Shown in pieces: positions 254 to 25,262 of a DNA stretch of 29,306 nucleotides. Under the pieces are notes generated by a model. It searched no databases, had not been told where the DNA came from, and was given only the letters and a program-made list of their open reading frames with translations. Within the stretch, counting starts at the first letter, position 1; each line of letters starts with the position of its first letter. Position numbers and translations under genes: made by a program. The DNA comes from a virus: IMG/VR virus record IMGVR_UViG_3300045051_000067, positions 1-29,306 of that record; one strand, given 5' to 3'.

Positions 254-483
254 CAGACAAAATAAATTATAATAAAGTACCAGTTTTTTACTGTAAGAAG
301 TGTTTATCTTTATCAGTGTTTTCAGAAGATGCTGAGGAACCTTCAGAGGAAGGTAGAACTACAGATGAATTTAAATACTGTTTAAACTGTGGGGAACACC
401 ACATAGGAATAACAACTATATCTGTCTGGGATACAATGTATCAGGAGAAATATGGTATAAAATACTTGAATGAAACATTATGA
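250..483 (+). CDS. Zinc-ribbon-like small protein
   Basis: This is a 77-residue protein with two CxxC knuckles: Cys15-Lys-Lys-Cys18 and Cys44-Leu-Asn-Cys47-Gly, separated by an acidic, Ser/Glu-rich loop of about 25 residues. This is the layout of a zinc ribbon. Two histidines (H50, H51) follow the second knuckle. Zinc ribbons in small phage proteins usually act in nucleic-acid or protein binding, but the family is not specific enough to name a role. The gene starts inside an ATGA overlap with its predecessor and ends in another ATGA overlap with the next gene, so it sits inside one operon. The four-cysteine pattern is seen directly; metal binding is inferred. Confidence 0.75.
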   Translation: MTDKINYNKVPVFYCKKCLSLSVFSEDAEEPSEEGRTTDEFKYCLNCGEHHIGITTISVWDTMYQEKYGIKYLNETL

Positions 484-878
484 CAAACAATATTAAATGG
501 GTAAAAAGGGTAGTTACAAATGACTTTGATTTCTTTAAGGAATGGTTAAAGATAATTATATCTTATAGTCCACTTACAGATGCAGAGGCTAAGTTTGTAG
601 CAGCACTTCTTACCAAGAGACAGGAACTCAGGAAGGTTATATTGGATGAAGCAATATTAACTAAATTCTTATTTTCAAAGGAAGTAAAACATGAGATTAT
701 TAAAATGATTGAAATGAAGGATATACAACAATTTGAAAATATGGCATCTAATCTTAGAGGGAAGGGTGTAATTGGGGAAGGTAATATTATTAACCCTGCT
801 TATATCCCACCAATAGAAAATGATTTTAAAGAGTTTTCAATAGGATTTAGAATAATTAAGACAGATGATAAGGGATAA
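480..878 (+). CDS. Possible winged-helix-type small phage protein
   Basis: This encodes 132 residues, mostly helical in character. The stretch from about residue 33 to 97 reads as 'LTDAEAKFVAALL... FLFSKEVKHEII... ENMASNLRGKGVI'. A helical LT..E..... start, a short [FL]FS.EV...I turn and a final N.....L..KGVI helix resemble winged helix-turn-helix proteins that are common in Bacteroidota phages. If that is right, it binds DNA and could regulate transcription or take part in initiation. The C-terminal 35 residues (INPAYIPP...) are likely extended. The gene starts in an ATGA overlap and its end overlaps the next gene by 14 bases. The HTH reading comes from pattern only and could be wrong; a plain helical structural protein is the alternative. 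Confidence 0.6.
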   Translation: MTNNIKWVKRVVTNDFDFFKEWLKIIISYSPLTDAEAKFVAALLTKRQELRKVILDEAILTKFLFSKEVKHEIIKMIEMKDIQQFENMASNLRGKGVIGEGNIINPAYIPPIENDFKEFSIGFRIIKTDDKG

Positions 879-1116
879 TAGAATTGATAAGTTAGTTAAT
901 CAAGTAGCTACTGAGTTTAATGTATCTGAGAAAGAGATAGAAGATATAGTAGATGCTGAAGGGTATTTTATTAGAAAGACTATTCAGGCTATCCCTTATA
1001 AAGAAATGTCATTAGAAGAATATAGAAATACTAAAAAGAACTTTAACTTACCAGGATTGTGTAAGTTATATACCTCAGAAAGAGGATTTATTAATATAAA
1101 CAAATTAGGAGAATGA
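865..1116 (+). CDS. Small conserved phage protein, unknown function
   Basis: This encodes 83 residues. The N-terminal half (IDKLVNQVATEFNVSEKEIEDIV...FIRKTI) has the look of a widespread small phage protein in Bacteroidota phages: a helix, a 'FN(V/I)S..E.E.IV' turn and a second helix, then a 'LP.L.KLY' segment near the C-terminus (residues 62-69 here, LPGLCKLY). I recognise the pattern but not an established function. The start at 865 lies 14 bases inside the previous gene; no later ATG would keep the helical N-terminus, so this start is preferred. The stop overlaps the next start by ATGA. Confidence 0.7.
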   Translation: MIRDNRIDKLVNQVATEFNVSEKEIEDIVDAEGYFIRKTIQAIPYKEMSLEEYRNTKKNFNLPGLCKLYTSERGFININKLGE

Positions 1117-1541
1117 AAAAAGAAATTAATGCAATTCCACTATATGATGGAATATTTGTAACAGCTTTAAAAAAGAAAGTAACTGAAGGTGGTGTAATTA
1201 CAGATGCTTTAAATGAATATCAAGAAAGACAGAGGGTTATTATTACAGGTACACAGTGCCCTCCAGAAATCATGAAGGATGATATTGTAGTGCTTAATTT
1301 AGAACCAGGAATTTCTAGGTTTGTGAGATTAAAATATAATAAGGACAGTTTAAAGTCTGATATTAATGGAATTATACCTATTGAATATGTCTTTCCAATA
1401 AAGATATTTAATGGTGTTGAATATATGTTGATTACTCCTAGGGATATTGACTTTATTATTCCTGTTAATGATGAACACTTTACTTTGGAGGAAAGACTAG
1501 AAAATAAAGATATTATAACTGGTATTCCTATTGTTAAATAA
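1113..1541 (+). CDS. GroES/gp31-like co-chaperonin (probable)
   Basis: This 142-residue protein has the strand order of the GroES family. 'IPLYDGIFVTAL' (residues 8-19) matches the opening PL.D.i.V strand. 'VTEGGVIT' (23-30) occupies the position of the mobile loop that docks into GroEL and keeps the Gly-Gly-hydrophobic core. 'RVIITGT' (41-47) matches the GEVLAVG strand, 'MKDDIVVLNLEPG' (54-66) matches the vkvGD.V strand, and 'GVEYMLITPRDIDFII' (101-116) matches the closing eyl.i...DI.a strand. About 35 extra residues sit between the last two elements, and a 25-residue tail follows, so it is longer than host GroES (about 95 residues), as phage gp31-type proteins are. It would cap host GroEL, probably to fold the capsid or another large virion protein. 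It is followed 14 bases later by an Hsp20-like gene. The fold call is by eye; a lid-less beta-barrel is the alternative. Confidence 0.68.
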   Translation: MKKEINAIPLYDGIFVTALKKKVTEGGVITDALNEYQERQRVIITGTQCPPEIMKDDIVVLNLEPGISRFVRLKYNKDSLKSDINGIIPIEYVFPIKIFNGVEYMLITPRDIDFIIPVNDEHFTLEERLENKDIITGIPIVK

Positions 1542-1555
1542 TTAAAAGAAGAGTT

Positions 1556-1843
1556 ATGGATTTTTATTTTAATGCTATAAATTATTCAATTGAGGAAAAT
1601 GATAGGGTTATTATTTATCACTACCCAATTCCAGGTGTAGATGCCAAAGATATTATAATAAAAGTAAAAAATACTAAATTTACCGTAGACATTCCTACTT
1701 CAGAATTTATGCACGCAAGGGGTTTTTGTACTCCACTAAGTTTTAAAATTACTAAAGATAGTGTAAAAGTATGGGTAGAAAATGGAGTATTATTTGTTGA
1801 AGTAACAAAACCAGAAGATTATGAATTTGAAATTAAATTATAA
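1556..1843 (+). CDS. Hsp20-like small heat-shock protein
   Basis: This 95-residue protein is almost only an alpha-crystallin domain. 'YHYPIPGVDAKDIIIKVKN' (21-39) corresponds to the 'PGv.keDI.v.ve.' opening strands. 'PLSFKITKDSVKVWVENGVLFVEV' (60-83) corresponds to the '.F.lp..vd...i.A...NGVL.v..' closing strands, with the diagnostic NGVL at 76-79. The C-terminal Ile-Lys-Leu recalls the I-x-I/V anchor of small heat-shock proteins. It lacks the long N-terminal arm, so it may form small oligomers. The family holds unfolding proteins in a refoldable state without ATP. A TTAAAAGAAGAG leader sits 2 bases before the start, and the stop overlaps the next gene as TAATG. Position beside the GroES-like gene points to a phage folding module. 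A generic p23/CS-fold protein is the alternative. Confidence 0.7.
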   Translation: MDFYFNAINYSIEENDRVIIYHYPIPGVDAKDIIIKVKNTKFTVDIPTSEFMHARGFCTPLSFKITKDSVKVWVENGVLFVEVTKPEDYEFEIKL

Positions 1844-2124
1844 TGGCAAAGTATAGAGGTAAACCAATAGAAATTGATGCCTGGTTAGTAGAGGATATTC
1901 TCTGGGCAGCAGAACATTCTTGGAATAGTCTTCCAGAAGAAATAGTTAATGCTTATAATAAAGGTGGTTGGGTGTTTTTAACAGATGGTACAATCCACAT
2001 TCCAACACCAGAAGGAGTAGTTGTAGCATATTCAGGAGATTTTATTATCAGAGATATTCATGGCAAGTTTAAACCAATTAGCCCAGATAGATTCTGGGAG
2101 TTATATGAGAGGGTTGAGGAGTAA
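1843..2124 (+). CDS. PGDYG-like conserved phage protein
   Basis: This 93-residue protein follows a pattern found in many unrelated phages: an N-terminal 'YR.KP..I.A' (here YRGKPIEIDAW, residues 4-14), a middle 'IPTPEG...A..GDFIIR' (IHIPTPEGVVVAYSGDFIIRD) and an end 'G.F.P..PD.FW..YE.VE'. The core [PSY]GD[YFW]I[IV] motif is what names the PGDYG-type family; here it reads SGDFII. The family is common in phage genomes and has no settled function that I know. The gene is locked into the operon by a TAATG overlap on both sides. Confidence 0.75.
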   Translation: MAKYRGKPIEIDAWLVEDILWAAEHSWNSLPEEIVNAYNKGGWVFLTDGTIHIPTPEGVVVAYSGDFIIRDIHGKFKPISPDRFWELYERVEE

Positions 2125-2384
2125 TGGTAGAAATAGTAAGATCATATAATAAACGCATTAAAGGGAAGCTTAATCACTTTCAAAAGGATGATTTTGTGAG
2201 ACTAGGGTTAGGTGAGTACTACTGGTGTCCAAAAGATAAACTAGATATTGAGGAATTAAAGGGGAAACTTGTAGAAATAATGCGTAAAGAAGGGTTTATA
2301 TTCTTTGATAATATTGAGTATAAGGTGAAGTTTAAGTTTGGATGCTTACATGAGTTTGCTGTGCAATTTCACCACATCCTTTGA
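2124..2384 (+). CDS. Hypothetical protein
   Basis: This encodes 86 residues, basic at the N-terminus (RSYNKRIKGK) and rich in Phe, Tyr and Lys throughout. It carries single Cys residues at about 35 and 74 and a His-rich C-terminus (HEFAVQFHH). No membrane segment is evident and I recognise no family. It is the last gene of the first operon: a new Bacteroidota-type promoter begins at its 3' end, with the -33 TTTG overlapping the final codons and the stop. Confidence 0.65.
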   Translation: MVEIVRSYNKRIKGKLNHFQKDDFVRLGLGEYYWCPKDKLDIEELKGKLVEIMRKEGFIFFDNIEYKVKFKFGCLHEFAVQFHHIL

Positions 2385-2410
2385 ATTCAATAATTTATTT
2401 AGTATATTTG
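2380..2410 (+). promoter_or_regulatory. Bacteroidota-type promoter (best match in window)
   Basis: TTTG at 2380-2383, a 19-base spacer, then TATATTTG at 2403-2410 match the TTTG-N19-TAnnTTTG consensus of the primary sigma factor in Bacteroides. Transcription would begin near 2417 and read through the 98-residue gene and the tRNA. A 7-base inverted repeat (TTATTTA 2395-2401, TAAATAA 2421-2427) flanks the -7 box and may be chance in AT-rich DNA. Confidence 0.75.
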
Positions 2411-2426
2411 CAAAAAATAGTAAATA

Positions 2427-2723
2427 ATGTTATTAGAAGAAGATATATTAGACTTGGGATTTACAAAGGAAGATTATAGTACTGCCGCAATCCAGTACTA
2501 TATCTTCATTGTAAGTAGAGCTACGGATATACAGTCTGATGCTCATAATGATTACATATTAAAAGTAGATAATGCTGATGATAATCCTCATCAATTATCT
2601 GCCAAATTAAGACTAGGAAGTCATTACAATTTAAATACTAATGGTTGGATGGGTACATTTACTGATAAAGATCATTTGTATGATGTACTTATGAAGATGA
2701 TTAGATGGGATATAACACATTAA
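2427..2723 (+). CDS. Small protein under its own promoter, unknown function
   Basis: This encodes 98 residues. The N-terminus (LLEEDILDLGFTKEDYS) is acidic and helical; the rest is rich in Asp, Asn and Tyr and ends 'HLYDVLMKMIRWDITH'. The opening 'L.EEDIL.LGF' and the closing 'L..VL' helix recall small phage and bacterial proteins that pair a short acidic helix with a beta-sheet, but I cannot name the family. It has its own strong promoter about 20 bases upstream and is followed by the tRNA, so the three form one transcription unit, perhaps continuing into the nuclease and terminase genes. Confidence 0.65.
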   Translation: MLLEEDILDLGFTKEDYSTAAIQYYIFIVSRATDIQSDAHNDYILKVDNADDNPHQLSAKLRLGSHYNLNTNGWMGTFTDKDHLYDVLMKMIRWDITH

Positions 2724-2761
2724 TAAGTTACCACCTCAGGCAAGTATTAATTAAAAGGTTT

Positions 2762-2787
2762 TATAGGTTGTACCTTAACAGCCTATA
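2762..2787 (+). other. 9-bp hairpin just 5' of the tRNA
   Basis: TATAGGTTG (2762-2770) pairs with CAGCCTATA (2779-2787) over nine positions, with one G-U wobble and an 8-base loop. It ends one base before the tRNA acceptor stem. There is no U run behind it, so it is not a classical terminator. A processing signal for tRNA 5' maturation is the likelier role, by inference. Confidence 0.5.
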
Positions 2788-2788
2788 T

Positions 2789-2875
2789 GGAGGGTAGGTA
2801 AATATTGGGTTGTTACGGTAACCTGCTAAGTTATTCTGTGTAAAAGCAGTTAGAGTTCAATTCTCTAATCCTCCG
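2789..2875 (+). tRNA. tRNA-Ser(GCU)
   Basis: All arms can be folded by hand. The acceptor is GGAGGGT (2789-2795) with ATCCTCC (2868-2874), one G-U pair included. The D arm is GTAA/TTAC around an 11-base loop holding GGG. The anticodon stem is GTAAC/GTTAT around the loop CTGCTAA, with GCT at 2825-2827. A long variable arm CTGT/GCAG (2836-2849) marks a class II tRNA. The T arm TAGAG/CTCTA surrounds TTCAATT. Discriminator G2875 is the serine identity base. CCA is not encoded. Odd points: the base after the acceptor stem (normally U8) is A, and the D arm is short. It would decode AGU and AGC, both common in the fibre genes of this window. Confidence 0.85.
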
Positions 2876-2895
2876 CAATATTAAAAGAAGAAGAT

Positions 2896-3282
2896 ATGGG
2901 TTTAATGTATGGAATTATAATTTTATTAGCTTTAGTTGTTGGAGTTTTAGTTGGTAAGATCTCAGTTGATAAATCAAAAAATACTAATAAGATAAAGGAA
3001 CTTACAGATAACTACTCAAAATTACTATCCCAGAAAAAATCTTCTGAAGTAAGATTAGGCCAAATATCGGAAAACTTAGCACCATTCTTAAAAGATTTTA
3101 AATATAATCCTAAAGAAGCACACTTTATTGGGATGCCTATTGATTATATCATATTTGAAGAGGATAAAGTTGTTTTCCTTGAAGTAAAATCTGGGGGATC
3201 TAGATTAAGTTCAAAACAATCTAATATTAAAAGGTTGATTAAAGAGGGTAAAATACTTTGGGATGAAATGAGAGTTAATTAA
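2896..3282 (+). CDS. Membrane-anchored PD-(D/E)xK nuclease, Holliday-junction-resolvase-related
   Basis: This encodes 128 residues. Residues 3-20 form one hydrophobic membrane segment (LMYGIIILLALVVGVLVG), followed by a Lys-rich linker with coiled-coil character (25-50). The C-terminal nuclease part holds 'RLGQISENLAPFL' (53-65), 'FIGMPIDYIIF' with D83, and 'VVFLEVKSG' with E96 and K98, the D...ExK signature. 'SSKQSNIKRLI' follows. This layout matches Endonuc_Holl (COG4741), described as predicted secreted or anchored endonucleases distantly related to archaeal Holliday-junction resolvase. It would cut branched DNA, perhaps at the inner membrane face, either to clear junctions before packaging or to attack host DNA. 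A TTAAAAGAAGAAG leader precedes the start. The terminase genes follow directly. Confidence 0.75.
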   Translation: MGLMYGIIILLALVVGVLVGKISVDKSKNTNKIKELTDNYSKLLSQKKSSEVRLGQISENLAPFLKDFKYNPKEAHFIGMPIDYIIFEEDKVVFLEVKSGGSRLSSKQSNIKRLIKEGKILWDEMRVN

Positions 3283-3293
3283 AAGAAGAAGAG

Positions 3294-3848
3294 ATGAATT
3301 TATTTGAATTTGATAAAATTAAATATATGGTACACCCAACCGAAGAGGCTTTATTACTTAAAGTCTTTTCTGATATATGGAAGAGAGATAAATCTAAAGA
3401 TAAAGTTATAGCACTTAGGGAATTGGGATTTGTGTGGTTTTATTGTGATGTTAAATCACCACATTTAACTATGGAAGAACCTGATAAAACTAAGGAGATT
3501 ATAAAGGATTTAGACCTACCTAAAGAGTGGAAGAAGGATAAAGTTATTGATGCTGCCATAAACTACTATAACTCACATAAGAGTAAGATAGAGGAAATGT
3601 ATGAAGGGGCTTTAATGGTGGCTCAAACTATTACTGAGGTTTGTAAGAACTCCAGGGAGTATATTACAACTTCTGAAGATAAAATAGCAGCAGCACAGAA
3701 ATTAAATGCTATGTTGAAGGAGCTTCCTACTTCTATGGAGAAGTTGAAGGCTGCTGAACAACAACACTTAAAAGAAATAGATGATAAATCTGGTAAGAAG
3801 AAGGGTAGCCAGACTTACAATACTTATGAGGATATGCAACTAACATAA
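3294..3848 (+). CDS. Terminase-adjacent protein, possible small terminase subunit
   Basis: This encodes 184 residues, mostly helical. An N-terminal hydrophobic/aromatic part (residues 1-60, with 'LRELGFVWFYCD') is followed by helices rich in Lys and Glu (75-165) and a basic, polar tail (KSGKKKGSQ). Its stop overlaps the start of the large terminase as TAATG, so both are made together. Small terminase subunits are commonly encoded just upstream of the large one and are helical and oligomeric, which makes this the natural candidate. I see no clear helix-turn-helix, and small subunits are poorly conserved in crAss-like phages, so the role is inference from position. The start has a TTAAAAGAAGAAGAG leader directly before the ATG. 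Confidence 0.55.
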   Translation: MNLFEFDKIKYMVHPTEEALLLKVFSDIWKRDKSKDKVIALRELGFVWFYCDVKSPHLTMEEPDKTKEIIKDLDLPKEWKKDKVIDAAINYYNSHKSKIEEMYEGALMVAQTITEVCKNSREYITTSEDKIAAAQKLNAMLKELPTSMEKLKAAEQQHLKEIDDKSGKKKGSQTYNTYEDMQLT

Positions 3849-6136
3849 TGGAAGTATTACACTTAAATACATATCAAACACCTTTAACTACTGAATTAAA
3901 AGAAACACTACCAAGAGAGGTCTGGGAAGAAATAACAGAACTACTTAGTAGTGTATTATTTATAAAAAATATTACATCTCCAGAGGAGGTTAGAGGTTTT
4001 GCTAAGGATAGACCTAAAGATAAAACAGGTAAAATAATTGTAGACTTATCTAATCCTCATATATTGGAGGATATGAATTTCTTTAGGGAAAGAGCTTTAT
4101 TTCATGAAAAGAATAAATGCTATACCTTACTAAGACCTAATCCTAACCCTAAATCAGAGTTTGGATTATTCTGGAAAGAGGAAATAAGGAGATGGAAAGA
4201 GGGATTAGTTAGACCTTCAGATGGGGAATGGATACCTGGATATTATTATTTTTACTTGAACTATTGTCCAATTTGGTTAAATGAGGTAGTAGAAGATAAT
4301 GGTACTAAGAAAAAAGCAGAAAGGTTAAGGGCATTTCCTAAAGTATGGTTAGGTGATTACTTATTTTTTCACTATTTTGATCAAGCCAGAACTAATGGTA
4401 ATCATGTTAAGATGTTGAAAACTAGAGGTATAGGCGCAAGTTTTAAATTTGCATCAATTACTCCATGCAATATGTTTACACAATCTGGATTACCAAACTT
4501 CCATTTAGCCTCAGATAAAACTTTCTTGGAGGGAGAGAAAGGTGTTTTTGGTAAGATACTAGATAACTTAGACTGGATTGGATCAGAGACTCCATTCCCT
4601 AGAATGCGCCTTATAAACAGACTTTCTGATATGGAGGTGCAATTAGGTTACTTAGATGAATATGGTAGGCGTAGAGGCTTAAAATCATCCGTATTTGGCA
4701 TATCCTTAAAGGATAACCCCGACAAAGCTAGGGGTGTAAGAGGTCCGCTAATTCACTATGAAGAAGATGGTTTATTTAAACAGTTAGAAAAAGCATGGAA
4801 TGTTAACAGAAAAGCTGTTGAGGATGGAGACAATGTCTACGGAATTTTGGCAGCAGCAGGAACAGGCGGGGTTGAAGGTGCTGATTTTGAGGGATCTGAG
4901 AAATTATTTAGGAACCCTTTAGCTTATAACATTTATGGAATTCCAAATGTTTTTGATAAAAACCAAGAGGGTAATGTTAAGTGTGGATTCTTCTGGGGGG
5001 CATACTTAAATAGAGCAAATTGTTATGATCCTGTTAATGGGGAGCCTGATGTAATTAAAGCACTAATTGAGATTTTGATGGACAGATACTTAGTAAAGTA
5101 TAATTCATCTGATCCAATGGCAATTACACAAAAAAAAGCAGAAGAATGTATAACTCCTGCTGAGGCAGTTATGAGAACCACAGGAACTATATTCCCAGTA
5201 TCCGAATTAAAAGATTATCTCGAAGATATTAAAATGCAAGGGGTTAGATTCTTTGATGGGCATTATGTTGGAGACTTAGTAAATAATAATGGAGAAATAA
5301 AATGGGAAGTTAATGCAAATAAATATCCCATTAGGACATATAGAGTACCTTCTGATAACTTAGAGGGGTGCTTAGAAATATTTGAGCAACCTAAACTTGG
5401 CAAAAATAATCTCCCAATACAAGGTAGATATGGGTTGGCAGTTGACCCTATTACAGATGATTCTGGAACCTCATTAGGATCAATATTAGTATTTGACTTT
5501 TTCCTTGATACAATTGTAGCAGAATACACAGGTAGACCAAAGTTCGCCAATGACTTCTATGAAATATGTAGGAGGTTAGGACTTTACTATAACGGTAAGA
5601 TATTATATGAAAACAACTTGAAGGGGTTATATACTTACTTTAGTCAACAGGGTTGTTTATACTTACTAGCAGCAAACCCAGAGATACTCAAGGATCAGGA
5701 TATGATGAGGAAGGGTAACTATGGTAATAAATCACTTGGAGTTCATGCTACTGCTGAAATAAACTCTTATGGTAGAAGGCTTATTAGAGACTGGTTACTA
5801 ACTATAGCTCACCCCAACTATCAAAAAACTGATGATGAGGGTAATATTGTTGGGGAAGTATTAAATATGCACCTAATAAGAAGTACTGCATTGGTAGAGG
5901 AGTTAATAGCCTGGAATGCTGATGGTAACTTTGATAGGGTAAGTGCACTTGGAATACTTATGATATTAAGAGAGGAGCATAAAAAGTTCATTGATAACTA
6001 CCTTGATGCAAGTAACACTACCAAATCAGTAGTAAATGATGATTATTTTACTAAAAACTATGATATAAAACATGGAAAGGGTTTTAGCTATGAGGAGACT
6101 CAGAGGCTTATGAAGCAATACTTTTCTAAACCATAA
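3848..6136 (+). CDS. terL: Terminase large subunit (DNA packaging ATPase-nuclease)
   Basis: This encodes 762 residues. It pumps the genome into the prohead through the portal and cuts concatemers. The ATPase part shows a Walker A-like loop 'KTRGIGASF' (191-199), a Walker B-like strand ending in acids 'LIHYEED' (301-307), and a following 'AAAGTGG' (335-341) in the place of the coupling motif. The RNase H-like nuclease shows 'AVDPITDDSGT' with D533, 'ILYENN' with E588, and 'DGNFDRVSALG' with D692 and D696 near the C-terminus: three acidic sites in the order expected for metal binding. The N-terminal 180 residues are a long extension before the ATPase. The length, at the long end for large terminases, fits crAss-like phages. 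It is followed by a new promoter and the portal gene, the usual order. Confidence 0.92.
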   Translation: MEVLHLNTYQTPLTTELKETLPREVWEEITELLSSVLFIKNITSPEEVRGFAKDRPKDKTGKIIVDLSNPHILEDMNFFRERALFHEKNKCYTLLRPNPNPKSEFGLFWKEEIRRWKEGLVRPSDGEWIPGYYYFYLNYCPIWLNEVVEDNGTKKKAERLRAFPKVWLGDYLFFHYFDQARTNGNHVKMLKTRGIGASFKFASITPCNMFTQSGLPNFHLASDKTFLEGEKGVFGKILDNLDWIGSETPFPRMRLINRLSDMEVQLGYLDEYGRRRGLKSSVFGISLKDNPDKARGVRGPLIHYEEDGLFKQLEKAWNVNRKAVEDGDNVYGILAAAGTGGVEGADFEGSEKLFRNPLAYNIYGIPNVFDKNQEGNVKCGFFWGAYLNRANCYDPVNGEPDVIKALIEILMDRYLVKYNSSDPMAITQKKAEECITPAEAVMRTTGTIFPVSELKDYLEDIKMQGVRFFDGHYVGDLVNNNGEIKWEVNANKYPIRTYRVPSDNLEGCLEIFEQPKLGKNNLPIQGRYGLAVDPITDDSGTSLGSILVFDFFLDTIVAEYTGRPKFANDFYEICRRLGLYYNGKILYENNLKGLYTYFSQQGCLYLLAANPEILKDQDMMRKGNYGNKSLGVHATAEINSYGRRLIRDWLLTIAHPNYQKTDDEGNIVGEVLNMHLIRSTALVEELIAWNADGNFDRVSALGILMILREEHKKFIDNYLDASNTTKSVVNDDYFTKNYDIKHGKGFSYEETQRLMKQYFSKP

Positions 6137-6144
6137 ATATTAAT

Positions 6145-6152
6145 TATCTTTG
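6145..6152 (+). promoter_or_regulatory. Promoter -7 box for the portal operon
   Basis: TATCTTTG fits the TAnnTTTG box and is followed by a short AT leader to the portal start at 6172. The expected -33 position (about 6122-6125) reads TTTT instead of TTTG, so the upstream element is weak and the promoter is less certain than the one at 2380. Confidence 0.55.
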
Positions 6153-6171
6153 CAAACTATACTATTACTAT

Positions 6172-8583
6172 ATGTATACAAACTTAACAACACAGTTTCC
6201 AAACCAGAGGCTTCCACTGACACAGAAAGGTAAAGAGTGGCGTGAGAGGCATCTAAAATGGGCTGAAAATGTAAGATATTCCAATAACGGAAAGATTAGA
6301 AAATCTCTATTAAATAAGAAAATTAACTTTGACTTATATGGGGGAAAGCTACATCTAAGTGATATTAAGATGTACTTAAACCCTTACAATAAAGTATCCT
6401 CATACATCCCAGATAAAATACAACATTACCCAGTAATGAACCAAGCTTTGGACCTACTTACTGGGGAGGAAGTTAATAGAAAATCTGAAATGACTGTTAA
6501 AGTTGCAAATGCAGAAGCTATCAGTCAGGTTGAGGAAACTAAAGCTAAACAAATAAGAGAACTTTTATTAGAATTTGTATCCAAGGATATACCAGAGGGG
6601 CAAGAACAACAAGAAGCCTCTGATCTAATAAAATATGCTAATTATAAATATCAAGATTTACGTGAGATACATGCTAACTGGGTACTGAATGATGCTATTA
6701 AATCAACTGATTTTTATAGGAAGTTACAGGAAGGTTTTAAGCATGTTACAATATGTGCTGAGGAAATTTACCTATTTGATATAGTATCTGGGGAACCTGT
6801 AATGGAATTATTAAACCCTAAAAAGGTTTATACATTCAGAGCTGGGCAATCAAGCAGAATAGAGGACTCTGACGTGATTATTATTGATGACTACTGGAGT
6901 ATAGGGAGGGTTCACGATACCTTCTATAACAAGCTAAAACCTGCCCATTTAGCATCATTAGACAGCATTACAGGGAATATGGCCAGTGGTTCTGGTAATC
7001 AGATTTGGATTGATGATACAAGGGGTTATATTTCCCTACCCTCAGATGATCCAAGTGAAAACTTAATTGATGGATTCTTAGGATATGCAAATGAACTAGG
7101 ATTACCACATTCAGATTATATTGATATGGATGGTAATGTTAGGGTTTTAAGGATATACTGGAAATCACAAAGGAAATTACTTAAATTAAAAAGATATGAT
7201 TTTGAAACTGGTGATACCATTGAAGAATTTGTATCTGAAAATTACACTCCAAATAAGACTTATGGGGAAGAAGTAGAAACTTACTGGGTTAATGAGTGGT
7301 GGCAAGGTACTAAGATTGGTAAAGATATTTATATTGAAATAAAACCTAAAGAATTACAATATAGAAGGAATAGTAATCCTTCAATATGTCATCCTGGAAT
7401 AGTTGGTCAGGTATATAATACTAACCAAATGAGGGCACAGTCAATGGTGGATAAGATGAAACCATTACAGTACTTCTATGATGCTACTATGGATAGGTTA
7501 AATAAGTTACTTGCTAATCATGTTGGTAAGGTAGCTGAGATTGATTTAGCTAAGGTTGCTTGGGATGATATGGATAAGTGGTTACATTTTATCCGTACAG
7601 AAAATATAGCTTATTTAAATAGTTTTAAAGAGTCTAATAAGGGGGTTGCTTCTGGACAGTTTAATACTGTTGGGGGGCACACTATTGATTTAGATCAAAG
7701 TGCCGCTATTGAATTTTACATGAATATGTTGGAGTACTTCCGTAGATCCATGTATGATATAGTAGGCATTACCCCACAGAGATTAGGTGAAGTTTCTAAT
7801 AGGGAAACTGTTGGTGGGGTAGAGAGATCTGTTACACAATCTAGCCATGTTACAGCAGAGTTATTTGCAGTACATGATAATGTTAAAAAGAGGTGTGCAG
7901 AGATATTAATGGAAACTGCTAAATATGCAGTAAAAGGTAATAAGTTTAAGGCACAATCAGTAAGTTCTGAAGGTGTTACAATATTTATGGATATAGATGG
8001 AGATGATCTATTAGAAAGGGATTATTCTATTTATGTTGAAAATGATTTGGATCTTAATGGATTACGTCAGAAAATAGAAGGTTTAGCTCAAGCATGGTCA
8101 CAACAAAGTGATATAGTTAGACCAAGTACATTATTAAGTATCTTTGAAGATAAATCAATTGGTTCTATCAGACAGAAATTACTTGATGATGAAAATGCTA
8201 AGATGAAGAGGGATAATGAACAATTCCAACAAAATCTTCAACAACAACAACAAGATTTACAAGCACGTAGTCAGAAGGAACAAGTAGATATTGAATTAAA
8301 ACAACAAGAACTTCAGTTGAAGGACCTAATGAACCAGAGGGATAATAGCACACTATTGCAGATTAAGATGATGGAAATGCAAGCTAATAGTGGGGAGAAT
8401 AATACTGGTGAAATTGAGAAATTACAACTACAAAAAGAGAAGTTAGATAAAGAAATTGAACTTAAACAAGAACAATTTAATAGAACTTTACAAGAAACAA
8501 TTAGAAGTAATAAGGCTAAGGAGCAGGAGGCTACAAGGCATAATCAGAAATTAGAATCAAAATCAACAAGTAAAACTAAATAA
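6172..8583 (+). CDS. Portal protein
   Basis: This encodes 803 residues. Portal proteins form the dodecameric ring at one capsid vertex through which DNA enters and leaves and on which the tail is built. Evidence is the position directly after the terminase, the size, and the mixed helical sequence with 'YPVMNQALDLLTGEE' (about 85-99) and 'IVGITPQRLGEVSNRETVGGVERSV' (about 528-552), a conserved-looking stem/clip pattern seen in portal proteins of crAss-like and T7-like phages. The last 125 residues (from about 678) are strongly coiled and Gln/Glu/Lys-rich, with runs such as QQQQQ, which would give a long C-terminal barrel or crown. Two small structural genes and the fibre genes follow within a few bases. 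Confidence 0.85.
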   Translation: MYTNLTTQFPNQRLPLTQKGKEWRERHLKWAENVRYSNNGKIRKSLLNKKINFDLYGGKLHLSDIKMYLNPYNKVSSYIPDKIQHYPVMNQALDLLTGEEVNRKSEMTVKVANAEAISQVEETKAKQIRELLLEFVSKDIPEGQEQQEASDLIKYANYKYQDLREIHANWVLNDAIKSTDFYRKLQEGFKHVTICAEEIYLFDIVSGEPVMELLNPKKVYTFRAGQSSRIEDSDVIIIDDYWSIGRVHDTFYNKLKPAHLASLDSITGNMASGSGNQIWIDDTRGYISLPSDDPSENLIDGFLGYANELGLPHSDYIDMDGNVRVLRIYWKSQRKLLKLKRYDFETGDTIEEFVSENYTPNKTYGEEVETYWVNEWWQGTKIGKDIYIEIKPKELQYRRNSNPSICHPGIVGQVYNTNQMRAQSMVDKMKPLQYFYDATMDRLNKLLANHVGKVAEIDLAKVAWDDMDKWLHFIRTENIAYLNSFKESNKGVASGQFNTVGGHTIDLDQSAAIEFYMNMLEYFRRSMYDIVGITPQRLGEVSNRETVGGVERSVTQSSHVTAELFAVHDNVKKRCAEILMETAKYAVKGNKFKAQSVSSEGVTIFMDIDGDDLLERDYSIYVENDLDLNGLRQKIEGLAQAWSQQSDIVRPSTLLSIFEDKSIGSIRQKLLDDENAKMKRDNEQFQQNLQQQQQDLQARSQKEQVDIELKQQELQLKDLMNQRDNSTLLQIKMMEMQANSGENNTGEIEKLQLQKEKLDKEIELKQEQFNRTLQETIRSNKAKEQEATRHNQKLESKSTSKTK

Positions 8584-8585
8584 TT

Positions 8586-8864
8586 ATGGGCAGTCATATA
8601 TCAAAAACAATACTAAGCGCAACTAGGAAAACATTTGGGGATGGGACTCAATATATTGTAGATGTAACTAATCCTTCTCCAACAGATGTTGTTATGGAGT
8701 GGTGTTACGCACTTACAGATATTACAGGGTTTGCTGCTTCAAGTAGTAGGCTTGATGGTTCTGGCGGAGCATTCCCAACAGAATTAAATGCTGGTATTGA
8801 ATTACCAAGTGGATTATCTGATATATCAGTAACATCTGGTAGTTTATTATGCTTTTATAAATAA
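8586..8864 (+). CDS. Small probable structural protein
   Basis: This encodes 92 residues, rich in Ser, Thr, Gly and beta-branched residues, so probably a beta-sandwich. It has no membrane segment and only two Cys. It starts 2 bases after the portal stop and lies ahead of the fibre genes. Small beta proteins at this place are often virion decoration or fibre-adaptor proteins, but the sequence alone does not prove it, and I recognise no family. Confidence 0.65.
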   Translation: MGSHISKTILSATRKTFGDGTQYIVDVTNPSPTDVVMEWCYALTDITGFAASSSRLDGSGGAFPTELNAGIELPSGLSDISVTSGSLLCFYK

Positions 8865-8869
8865 TAAGT

Positions 8870-9148
8870 ATGAAAACTGGATTTGGATTACCTCGTAGGG
8901 ATATTCTAGGTGGTGGTGGTGATGGTGGGCAAGTCCTTGTATGGATTTTAACACCAACAGGTTTAACTACCCCTAACAGTGTCCATATTTGGATGGATGA
9001 TAGAATTTTTGAGGACACGTGGATTTGGACAGAGGAAGTTATGCAATATAAATTCCCATTAACTACACATGGATTAACTCTTCCAGGGGTTACTTATAGG
9101 TGGGATGATACTAAACAATTTAAAGACAGCTTAATTTGGACCGACTAA
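8870..9148 (+). CDS. Small protein with a duplicated W-DD-F-D-IWT motif
   Basis: This encodes 92 residues. A Gly-rich stretch 'GGGGDGG' (14-20) is followed by a short beta-rich body. A motif occurs twice: 'IWMDDRIFEDTWIWTEE' at about 40-56 and 'YRWDDTKQFKDSLIWTD' at the C-terminus. Each copy has W, a DD pair, F, D and IWT in the same order. The duplicated aromatic/acidic repeat suggests two equal binding faces or two strands of a small repeat fold. It is probably virion-associated, given its place between the portal and the fibre genes. I do not know the family. Confidence 0.65.
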   Translation: MKTGFGLPRRDILGGGGDGGQVLVWILTPTGLTTPNSVHIWMDDRIFEDTWIWTEEVMQYKFPLTTHGLTLPGVTYRWDDTKQFKDSLIWTD

Positions 9149-22572: not shown

Positions 22573-22587
22573 TATTATTAAAAGAAG

Positions 22588-23676
22588 ATGGCAGATGAAA
22601 TGAATATCTTCTTGGAAGATTCAATGGAGGATTTTTTAATTCCTTCAGATGATTTCAAGATTGAAGATATGCAACCAATAAAACAGGAAGAAACAGATGA
22701 AGTAATTACAGAAGAAATTAAAGAGGTTCAGGAAAAGAATAACATCCCTCCCGATGTATCTATTAAAAAAGATAACGAACCTTCTTCTTCTAATATACTT
22801 TCACAGTTAGTTTCAACGATGCAAGAGGAGGGATGGTTTGAATTAAAGGACGGTGAGGTCCTAGACATAAAAACACCACAAGATTTTGAACAGGTTCTAG
22901 AGAAGATTAGAGAAACTGCTTTAGAAACTGAACAGTCTGAGTGGAGTGACGTTCAGAAAGAATACTTTAATGCTTTAAGAAATGGAGTACCTCATGAAGA
23001 GATTGTACAACATCAACAGATGCAACAAACATTTGCATCAATTACTGATGGTGCAATTGAAGAAGAGGGTAATGAAGTTCTTAGGAAAAATATCTTAACT
23101 GCTTATTATACCAACACAGGTCTTGATAAAGAAGAGGCTGAAGAAATGGTAGAAAAAATAATCAAGGATGGTGAGGATATTGATAAGGCAAAGAAGTTTC
23201 GTGATAAACTAAAAGTAATTGAAGCTAATAACTTCAAGAAACAAGAGGAGGCTAATGCTGAGGCCAAGAAACAAGAAGCTGTAAAATTTGCAGCACAGCA
23301 GAAAGAGTTCAAAGCATATATTGAAAAACTTGATGAGGTAATTCCAGGTGAGAAATTAACCCCTAAATTGAAAAAGGAAGTTAATGATTTGCTGATTAAA
23401 CCTGTATCCTATGATGAAGCTGGTAATCCAAGGAATATTATTGGAGATTTCTTTGCTAAAGAAGGGAATAAGGGAGCTTTTAAATTAGCTTATTTATTAA
23501 AGATTACAGAGGGATTTACCAAGATGGATAATCTCTCAGTAAGTAAGGCAAAGAAAGATGTTACAAGTAAAGTTGCCAAATTGCTGCAAACTCCATCAAG
23601 TGCAATGTCATTCACTAAAGAAGATTCAACTAATATTATTGATGACATTGACTGGGATAAGATCCTGGAAATGTAG
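22588..23676 (+). CDS. Head scaffold protein (probable)
   Basis: This encodes 362 residues, strongly acidic at the N-terminus (MNIFLEDSMEDFLIPSDD, then Glu-rich to about residue 60) and helical with many Glu/Lys/Gln in the middle (about 100-270). The middle includes a coiled 'NNFKKQEEANAEAKKQEAVKFAAQQKEF' stretch (about 212-239). The C-terminus ends 'SFTKEDSTNIIDDIDWDKILEM'. A highly charged helical protein directly upstream of the major capsid gene, with its own strong promoter, is the standard scaffold layout. It would guide capsid assembly and leave or be cleaved during maturation. I see no protease motif. The gene ends in TAG, 29 bases before the capsid start. Confidence 0.72.
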   Translation: MADEMNIFLEDSMEDFLIPSDDFKIEDMQPIKQEETDEVITEEIKEVQEKNNIPPDVSIKKDNEPSSSNILSQLVSTMQEEGWFELKDGEVLDIKTPQDFEQVLEKIRETALETEQSEWSDVQKEYFNALRNGVPHEEIVQHQQMQQTFASITDGAIEEEGNEVLRKNILTAYYTNTGLDKEEAEEMVEKIIKDGEDIDKAKKFRDKLKVIEANNFKKQEEANAEAKKQEAVKFAAQQKEFKAYIEKLDEVIPGEKLTPKLKKEVNDLLIKPVSYDEAGNPRNIIGDFFAKEGNKGAFKLAYLLKITEGFTKMDNLSVSKAKKDVTSKVAKLLQTPSSAMSFTKEDSTNIIDDIDWDKILEM

Positions 23677-23705: not shown

Positions 23706-25262
23706 ATGGCACAAATGATTAACCCGTTCCAGATCCTGGAACAGCAAAGTTGGCAGGGGATGACAACTCCTTATAACCTTGGAGCACTATGGCAGAAAGA
23801 TCCTGTAAAGGCTTATGCTTTTGTAACTAAGGTTTTGTCAGCTAATAATATTCCCGATAGAGCACGGGAAATGGAAAAATATCCAGTTATGCTTGTAGAT
23901 ACTCCTGACTCTGAATTCTATTGGGATTTGGTAGGAACTGCCTACAAGAACATTCAACTTATTGAAGCCCGTCAAGGTGCTTCTGTAGTTACTACTGCAA
24001 CCACAGCCGTTGGTATTGGGGGTGCAAGGTTTAAACTTGTCTTTGATGAAAACTATTTCTTCAATGGTGAAGTTATTGTAGGTGAACTCAATGAGTTTTA
24101 TCTTATCCGTATTATTGGTGATCCTGTACCAGAAGGAATGTTCTGGGTATATGATGTACAGTTAATGGGTTCTGCTTTTAATAGTGGTATGCCAGGTTCT
24201 CAGTTAGTAGCTGGTAAAAGGTTTAGTTCTGAAAATTACAATCCTGCAACTCTTATCCGTAGTGATATTAAGGGTGGGGTACGTGGTTCTAGCCCATTTG
24301 CTATGAAACAGGAAATGTCTTTTGTTCGTAAAGACTATAGTGTTGCTGGTATTGAACTTTCTCGTAAGCTTAATATTGCAATGCCTGTAACAGGTACTGA
24401 TCCTAAAGATGGTCAAGTAAAACAAATTGCAACTACTGTTCCTTATAAAGATTGGATGTTTGAAATGGAATTCAATCAAGGTATTGGTAATGCTTTATTA
24501 TTTGGACGTTCTAATCGTGACTCTAATGGTTACTACCATGATAAAGATACCAATGGTGAACTTATTAAAACTGGTGCTGGTATTCGTGAACAAATGCAGG
24601 TATCTAATACTTATGTATATGACACATTCAAACTTTCTTGGTTGGATGATGCTCTGTATAACATGAGTGCTGGTAAGATTGCAATGGGTCAACGTAAATT
24701 CCGTCTGGTTACTGGGGAAAAGGGAGCTATCCAATTCCACAGGGCAGCTATGGATGTAGCTTCTGGGTGGCAGTCTAGTAATGCTAACTTTAACATGAAT
24801 GCTAACTTGAATACCATGAAACAGGTATCAAGTCCTATTCACCAGAATGCATTCAGTATGGGTTATCAAATTGTAGAATGGATTGGTCCTAATAATACTC
24901 ATGTTACTTTGGAAGTAGATCCTAGCTATGATGATCAGACCCGTAACAAGATTTACAAGAATAATAACCCTAATGATGGTGTTGCTGAATCTTACCGTTA
25001 TGATATTTTCTTTGAAGGTATTGTAGATGGTGAAAAGAATAACATCCAGTTGGTTAAGGTTAAAGGACAGGAACAAGGCTTACGTGGTTATGTTAATGGT
25101 CCTTTTGGTAAACTTTGGGAAGATGCTCGTGTAGGTAACTACAATGCTGCTACTACTAAAGATGAATATTCTTGTCATAAGATTATGTCCTTTGGAGCAA
25201 TTGTTAGAGATCCTTCTCGTACAATTACCCTATTACCGCAAGAGATTTCTCACATGCAGTAA
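23706..25262 (+). CDS. Major capsid protein
   Basis: This encodes 518 residues. The opening 'MAQMINPFQILEQQSWQGM' and 'DPVKAYAFVTKVLSANNIPDRAREMEKYPV' (about 33-62) are typical of crAss-like major capsid proteins, which adopt the HK97 fold. It would form the icosahedral shell. Arg codons are mostly CGT (for example around 24300-24900), while most other genes use AGA/AGG. That is the mark of a very highly expressed gene. The AT-rich leader TTTTAATTTAAAACAT stands 12 bases before the ATG. A scaffold gene precedes it and a strong terminator follows. No proteolytic delta domain is obvious. Confidence 0.85.
   Translation: MAQMINPFQILEQQSWQGMTTPYNLGALWQKDPVKAYAFVTKVLSANNIPDRAREMEKYPVMLVDTPDSEFYWDLVGTAYKNIQLIEARQGASVVTTATTAVGIGGARFKLVFDENYFFNGEVIVGELNEFYLIRIIGDPVPEGMFWVYDVQLMGSAFNSGMPGSQLVAGKRFSSENYNPATLIRSDIKGGVRGSSPFAMKQEMSFVRKDYSVAGIELSRKLNIAMPVTGTDPKDGQVKQIATTVPYKDWMFEMEFNQGIGNALLFGRSNRDSNGYYHDKDTNGELIKTGAGIREQMQVSNTYVYDTFKLSWLDDALYNMSAGKIAMGQRKFRLVTGEKGAIQFHRAAMDVASGWQSSNANFNMNANLNTMKQVSSPIHQNAFSMGYQIVEWIGPNNTHVTLEVDPSYDDQTRNKIYKNNNPNDGVAESYRYDIFFEGIVDGEKNNIQLVKVKGQEQGLRGYVNGPFGKLWEDARVGNYNAATTKDEYSCHKIMSFGAIVRDPSRTITLLPQEISHMQ

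Follow-up and report, generated by a model that had tools for sequence, protein, structure and literature searches.

The window, i.e., the whole stretch of DNA analysed, is a 29-kb fragment deposited as a virus record of 29,306 bases. Its terminase shares about 40-44 % identity with terminases of Steigviridae/Asinivirinae, e.g., crAss001, and 55-66 % with those of a set of IMG/VR contigs. The plus strand carries homologues of the VpsT-like protein crAss001 gp13 (480..878) and of the HU-like protein crAss001 gp14 (865..1116), both conserved neighbours of the locus, followed by an ORF of 142 aa (1113..1541, 16.3 kDa, ATG start) and an ORF of 95 aa (1556..1843, 11.1 kDa, ATG start). The start of the 142-aa ORF overlaps the stop of the HU gene, and 14 bp separate it from the 95-aa ORF on the same strand. 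A genome-specific insertion of ~1.74 kb (1542..3293, plus strand) then leads to a homologue of gp16 (phrog_16390, 3294..3848), the normal successor of gp15, and to the large terminase subunit (3848..6136). Further downstream on the plus strand lies the gene of the major head protein (23706..25262, 518 aa, 58.1 kDa), which matches phrog_11589 with an E value of 5e-86. Single-protein scans with the portal and with the gp16 homologue of the window yielded zero matches. A first-pass annotation had placed the two ORFs side by side at these positions and lengths, and had read them as a GroES/gp31-like co-chaperonin and an alpha-crystallin protein acting as one folding module. The positions were found as given; the readings fared differently.

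ORF 1113-1541 belongs to the already annotated crAss001 gp15 co-chaperonin family, within which it is divergent. By itself the protein reached a single PHROG family, phrog_3188 (GroES), at an E value of 0.003; it did not reach phrog_931, and Pfam Cpn10 gave zero matches at E values up to 1. Searching phrog_3188 directly against the six-frame translation of the window returned nothing, and neither did a single-protein search of IMG/VR, a type of scan that reaches only close relatives. Weak tblastn matches were obtained to proteins of cr116_1 and cr85_1 labelled "putative 10kDa chaperonin", a naming after crAss001, and to a bajarodcaudo virus 1 homologue that carries no label beyond hypothetical protein. 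The assignment was carried by profiles: a profile of eight crAss001-gp15 homologues, with the window protein left out, matched the 142-aa protein at an E value of 6.7e-11, and hhalign gave a probability of 96.9 against the gp15 family. Scanning IMG/VR with the gp15 homologue alignment revealed 80 family loci, and 63 family members were combined into an alignment (A3). Among these, 49 of 63 matched phrog_931 (best E value 5e-9), 41 matched phrog_3188 and 26 matched Pfam Cpn10 at E values up to 0.1, the best being 3.4e-6. Phrog_931 is the family of T4 gp31, which itself scores an E value of 3.7e-50 against it. In a comparison of the A3 profile with PDB sequences, Cpn10/GroES chains ranked first. 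Matches of the 142-aa protein to CobA/BtuR and MshL were partial, weak and at odds with the structure model, and were rejected. The identity to crAss001 gp15 is low (~20-32 %), and, unlike in crAss001, gp16 is displaced by the accessory insertion behind gp15. The gene is nevertheless of a known kind, core to its clade and previously annotated in the crAss-like phage group.

A structure model calculated by AlphaFold2 with A3 had a mean pLDDT of 80 and a pTM of 0.71, with poor confidence for the C-terminal residues 131-142. The first 31 rows of a Foldseek search were all GroES, Cpn10 or gp31 chains. VIA-align Z values reached 8.9 for Cpn10 and 8.1 for the GroES of 1aon; T4 gp31 scored 7.0 (2cgt) and 6.2 (1g31), and unrelated families ranged from 5.6 down. 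Viral models with a matching fold were predominantly GroES proteins of phages, among them proteins of cr108_1 and phi14:2 that lack a name. According to the model the 142-aa protein has the beta-barrel fold of GroES, and the GroES/gp31-like call of the first-pass annotation is borne out by both the gp15 profile and the predicted fold.

The GroES-type mobile loop that had also been claimed was recovered in alignments with GroES and gp31, in which residues 20-31 (KKKVTEGGVITD, 1170..1205, plus strand) form the loop. At sequence level, GGVI at residues 26-29 aligns with GGIVL of GroES and ESGLII of T4 gp31, and hhalign pairs the mobile loops of the window protein and gp31. The counterparts are GGII or GGLI in the gp15 family, GGI in human Cpn10 and SGLI in gp31; most gp15-family members, crAss001 gp15 among them, keep the hydrophobic motif. 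The site of the GroES roof hairpin, from G46 to V59 (1248..1289, plus strand), spans only 14 residues, with 12-14 in the family, hence the roof hairpin is absent, as it is in crAss001 gp15 and T4 gp31. Compared with GroES/Cpn10 (PF00166), the protein thus appears to share the beta-barrel and the hydrophobic mobile loop, whereas it lacks the roof hairpin and falls below Pfam recognition. From T4 gp31 it differs by an identity of only ~11 % in the fold match and by an extra segment of ~30 residues in its second half.

A barrel of this type could also serve another oligomeric or a DNA-associated function, since some family members weakly match GroES-like domains of alcohol dehydrogenases and the flanking genes encode an HU-like protein and packaging functions. 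The retention of the hydrophobic loop motif by most members, the co-chaperonins as top fold matches, gp31 (phrog_931) as best phage family and a GroEL gene in the vicinity in three relatives all argue against it, and we consider a barrel without co-chaperonin role improbable.

The gene order Zn protein, VpsT-like, HU, gp15, gp16, terminase places gp15 at the same position in 90 other loci. The comparison comprised 91 loci with both gp15 and terminase, the window included, and the order gp15 - gp16 - terminase was kept wherever gp16 was detected. Of the 54 loci of the closest terminase clade with 2.5 kb or more of sequence ahead of the terminase, 46 carried a GroES-like gene. In cr111_1, cr108_1 and phi14:2, the VpsT-HU-GroES-terminase block is preceded at short distance by a phage GroEL gene; these Asinivirinae have a complete phage chaperonin pair. 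There was no GroEL gene within the 29-kb window, which ends shortly upstream of the block and may miss one lying directly before position 1, nor in 50 relatives from the gp15 set. In two other genomes, cr85_1 and crAss001, a Dps-like gene (DpsA) was observed upstream of this block, embedded in a long cluster of tRNAs.

T4 gp31, which folds the ~56-kDa gp23, has no roof loops, a lack believed to assist GroEL in this folding (PMC6318259). A virion-assembly chaperone has been named among the late genes of crAss001 (PMC8375218). Gp15 of crAss001 and its homologues carry the annotation 'putative 10kDa chaperonin'. For the product of ORF 1113-1541, assembly into a GroES/gp31-like ring is most likely; its mobile loops would close a GroEL cage, which for most of these phages would be that of the host. 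Inside the capped cage a large virion protein would be folded. The most plausible candidate is the 58-kDa major head protein, which is similar in size to the T4 head protein and presumably the main client. The absence of the roof hairpin, shared with T4 gp31, would provide extra room.

ORF 1556-1843 is read from its sequence as a minimal, divergent Hsp20, and the homology is well supported. The best profile match was the NCBIfam model of archaeal Hsp20, NF041800 (E value 2.3e-6, residues 13-90); Pfam HSP20 (PF00011) matched residues 24-88 with an E value of 0.0039. Both scores are below the curated cut-offs, with 27.3 bits against 140 for the equivalog NF041800 and 17.7 bits against 20.8 for PF00011. 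PDB sequence matches were mostly small heat-shock protein chains; the PCNA chain in the top row was a tripled chance match, and a p23/CS reading was rejected, as HSP20 models matched and CS models did not. The motif ENGVL occupies residues 75-79 of the protein, and its C-terminus is formed by IKL (93-95). With the Hsp20 of the lytic cyanophage S-ShM2 (HspSP-ShM2) it shares the alpha-crystallin domain, the NGxL signature and a C-terminal I/L-x-I/V/L-like motif, at ~20 % identity. Its N-terminal arm is much shorter, with 25 residues ahead of the PG motif versus 64 ahead of the PG/AG motif in cyanophage small heat-shock proteins, and the long N-terminal arm of the archaeal type is missing as well. 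The distance from PG to NGVL is 50 residues versus 60-64 in four reference proteins (10-12 fewer than from PG/AG to NGxL in the S-ShM2 protein); therefore the beta5-beta7 region carrying the beta6 loop is shortened. A single-sequence structure model was mostly beta with a pLDDT of only 42, and Foldseek found no informative fold match for this poor model. Thus, of the two folds expected by the first-pass annotation, the GroES barrel was recovered, while the alpha-crystallin sandwich is unconfirmed by structure and the alpha-crystallin call is upheld by profile, motifs and PDB matches. Single-protein searches with the 95-aa ORF in IMG/VR and in bacterial and archaeal genomes, which reach only close relatives, returned nothing. 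Tblastn in phage records gave matches at chance level only, mostly to nucleases of staphylococcal phages.

The scores below the cut-offs, the lack of confidence in the model and the shortened beta5-beta7 region would fit a different beta-sandwich phage protein, structural or inhibitory, with a chance or co-opted likeness to the alpha-crystallin profile and no chaperone activity. We regard this as unlikely in view of the NCBIfam match across the whole domain, the predominance of small heat-shock proteins among the PDB matches and the correct placement of NGVL and IKL. Moreover, PF00011 had no background matches in many related phage genomes; its absence across ~120 related phage records served as an empirical null for the Hsp20 match. 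As an Hsp20-like protein, the 95-aa product would most likely act as an ATP-independent holdase on new phage proteins or stressed host proteins.

The insertion 1542..3293 contains the Hsp20-like gene, three small ORFs, a tRNA-Ser and a nuclease related to Holliday junction resolvases. The small protein encoded at 1843-2124 belongs to phrog_419 (E value 2e-18), and its start overlaps the stop of the Hsp20-like gene. The tRNA-Ser with anticodon GCT is located at 2789-2876. The endonuclease at 2896-3282 is related to archaeal Holliday junction resolvases (PF10107, E value 1.9e-23) and has an N-terminal membrane-like segment. The gap between gp15 and gp16 homologues measures 1741 nt in the window compared to at most 654 nt elsewhere. 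At the insertion site, other loci have homing-endonuclease-like or unrelated genes. The Hsp20-like gene, a known kind of protein, is an acquisition of this single lineage and was probably inserted together with accessory genes directly behind the co-chaperonin gene.

Such a setting may indicate that the Hsp20-like protein is a stand-alone accessory factor in host stress or host takeover, brought next to the co-chaperonin by chance in an insertion hotspot. The unique insertion of 1741 nt with its tRNA-Ser, nuclease and uncharacterised ORFs, the homing-endonuclease-like and unrelated genes at the same site elsewhere and the precedent of cyanophage small heat-shock proteins point in this direction, but the close packing with the co-chaperonin gene suggests co-expression. 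We consider this explanation possible, though less likely than not.

The folding module claimed by the first-pass annotation did not hold up in the locus comparison. PF00011 had 0 matches in 20 records of gut, marine and Flavobacterium phages, 0 in 50 gp15-bearing records and 0 in 50 records of the closest terminase clade; many of the records are fragments. In phmmer searches, no additional ORF located between gp15 and terminase in the 90 other loci resembled the Hsp20-like protein. Within this sample, the pair did not recur in other crAss-like genomes and the Hsp20-like gene was confined to the genome of the window. The co-chaperonin is thus a core gene, the Hsp20-like gene a singleton; their pairing is a rare local addition and no established folding module. 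In the open-access literature, we found neither a report of Hsp20 in crAss-like phages nor a description of a phage carrying both Hsp20 and a co-chaperonin. All results agree with the view of the first-pass annotation that such a pair is not known to be described for crAss-like phages. Four T4-like cyanophages had Hsp20 without a detected gp31/GroES and T4 has gp31 without Hsp20, so that a phage with both is unusual within this small T4/cyanophage comparison.

Transfer of clients from small heat-shock proteins to ATP-dependent chaperones is common. On this ground, and as both genes are adjacent on the same strand with only 14 bp between them, a two-step module was considered, in which phage clients are first bound by the Hsp20-like protein and then transferred to a GroEL cage with the phage co-chaperonin as its lid. 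Cooperation with ATP-dependent chaperones has also been suggested for a phage small heat-shock protein (PMC5028025). Adjacency without conservation, however, gives no support for a client hand-over between the two proteins. Hsp20 was absent from all ~120 related records, the cyanophages and T4 each had one partner and not the other, and the Hsp20-like gene is packed just as well against three further accessory ORFs. A joint function of the two proteins is possible, with no support lent by conservation, and the two-step module is an unlikely one. About as improbable is its more specific form, a private folding relay in which a small heat-shock protein reduced nearly to its domain, with a shortened beta6 loop, feeds the phage-capped cage. 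If true, no phage genome before this one would have been shown to combine Hsp20 with its own co-chaperonin in a working unit.

The best overall explanation is a GroEL lid of the gp15 family combined with a lineage-specific Hsp20-like holdase, without evidence of a joint relay; we assign it a probability of roughly 0.68. The co-chaperonin is of value mainly for its breadth: a gp31-like lid beside the terminase recurs in crAss-like phages of gut, environmental and marine origin, many of whose genes still have no assigned function. The prediction follows that head assembly in crAss-like phages depends on a swapped GroEL lid, with the capsid protein as the probable client. The Hsp20-like gene is rather a curiosity, as its alpha-crystallin product is very small and shortened and was found in one phage lineage only. 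Such a protein offers a simple case for asking how small a working small heat-shock protein can be.

Two further features of these genomes were observed. The terminases of L001, one of the compared loci (5746-9060), and of cr111_1, DAC15 and cr118_1 have an insertion of ~330 aa, which in L001 resembles an intein with a homing domain. In the window, TTAAAAGAAGA occurs in four exact copies on the plus strand, at 1542-1552, 2881-2891, 3279-3289 and 22578-22588. The first three immediately precede the gene starts at 1556, 2896 and 3294, and the copy ending at 22588 abuts the start of its gene. With one mismatch allowed, eight matches were counted versus 2.7 expected. Judged from sequence and position, TTAAAAGAAGA is possibly a ribosome-binding or leader element.
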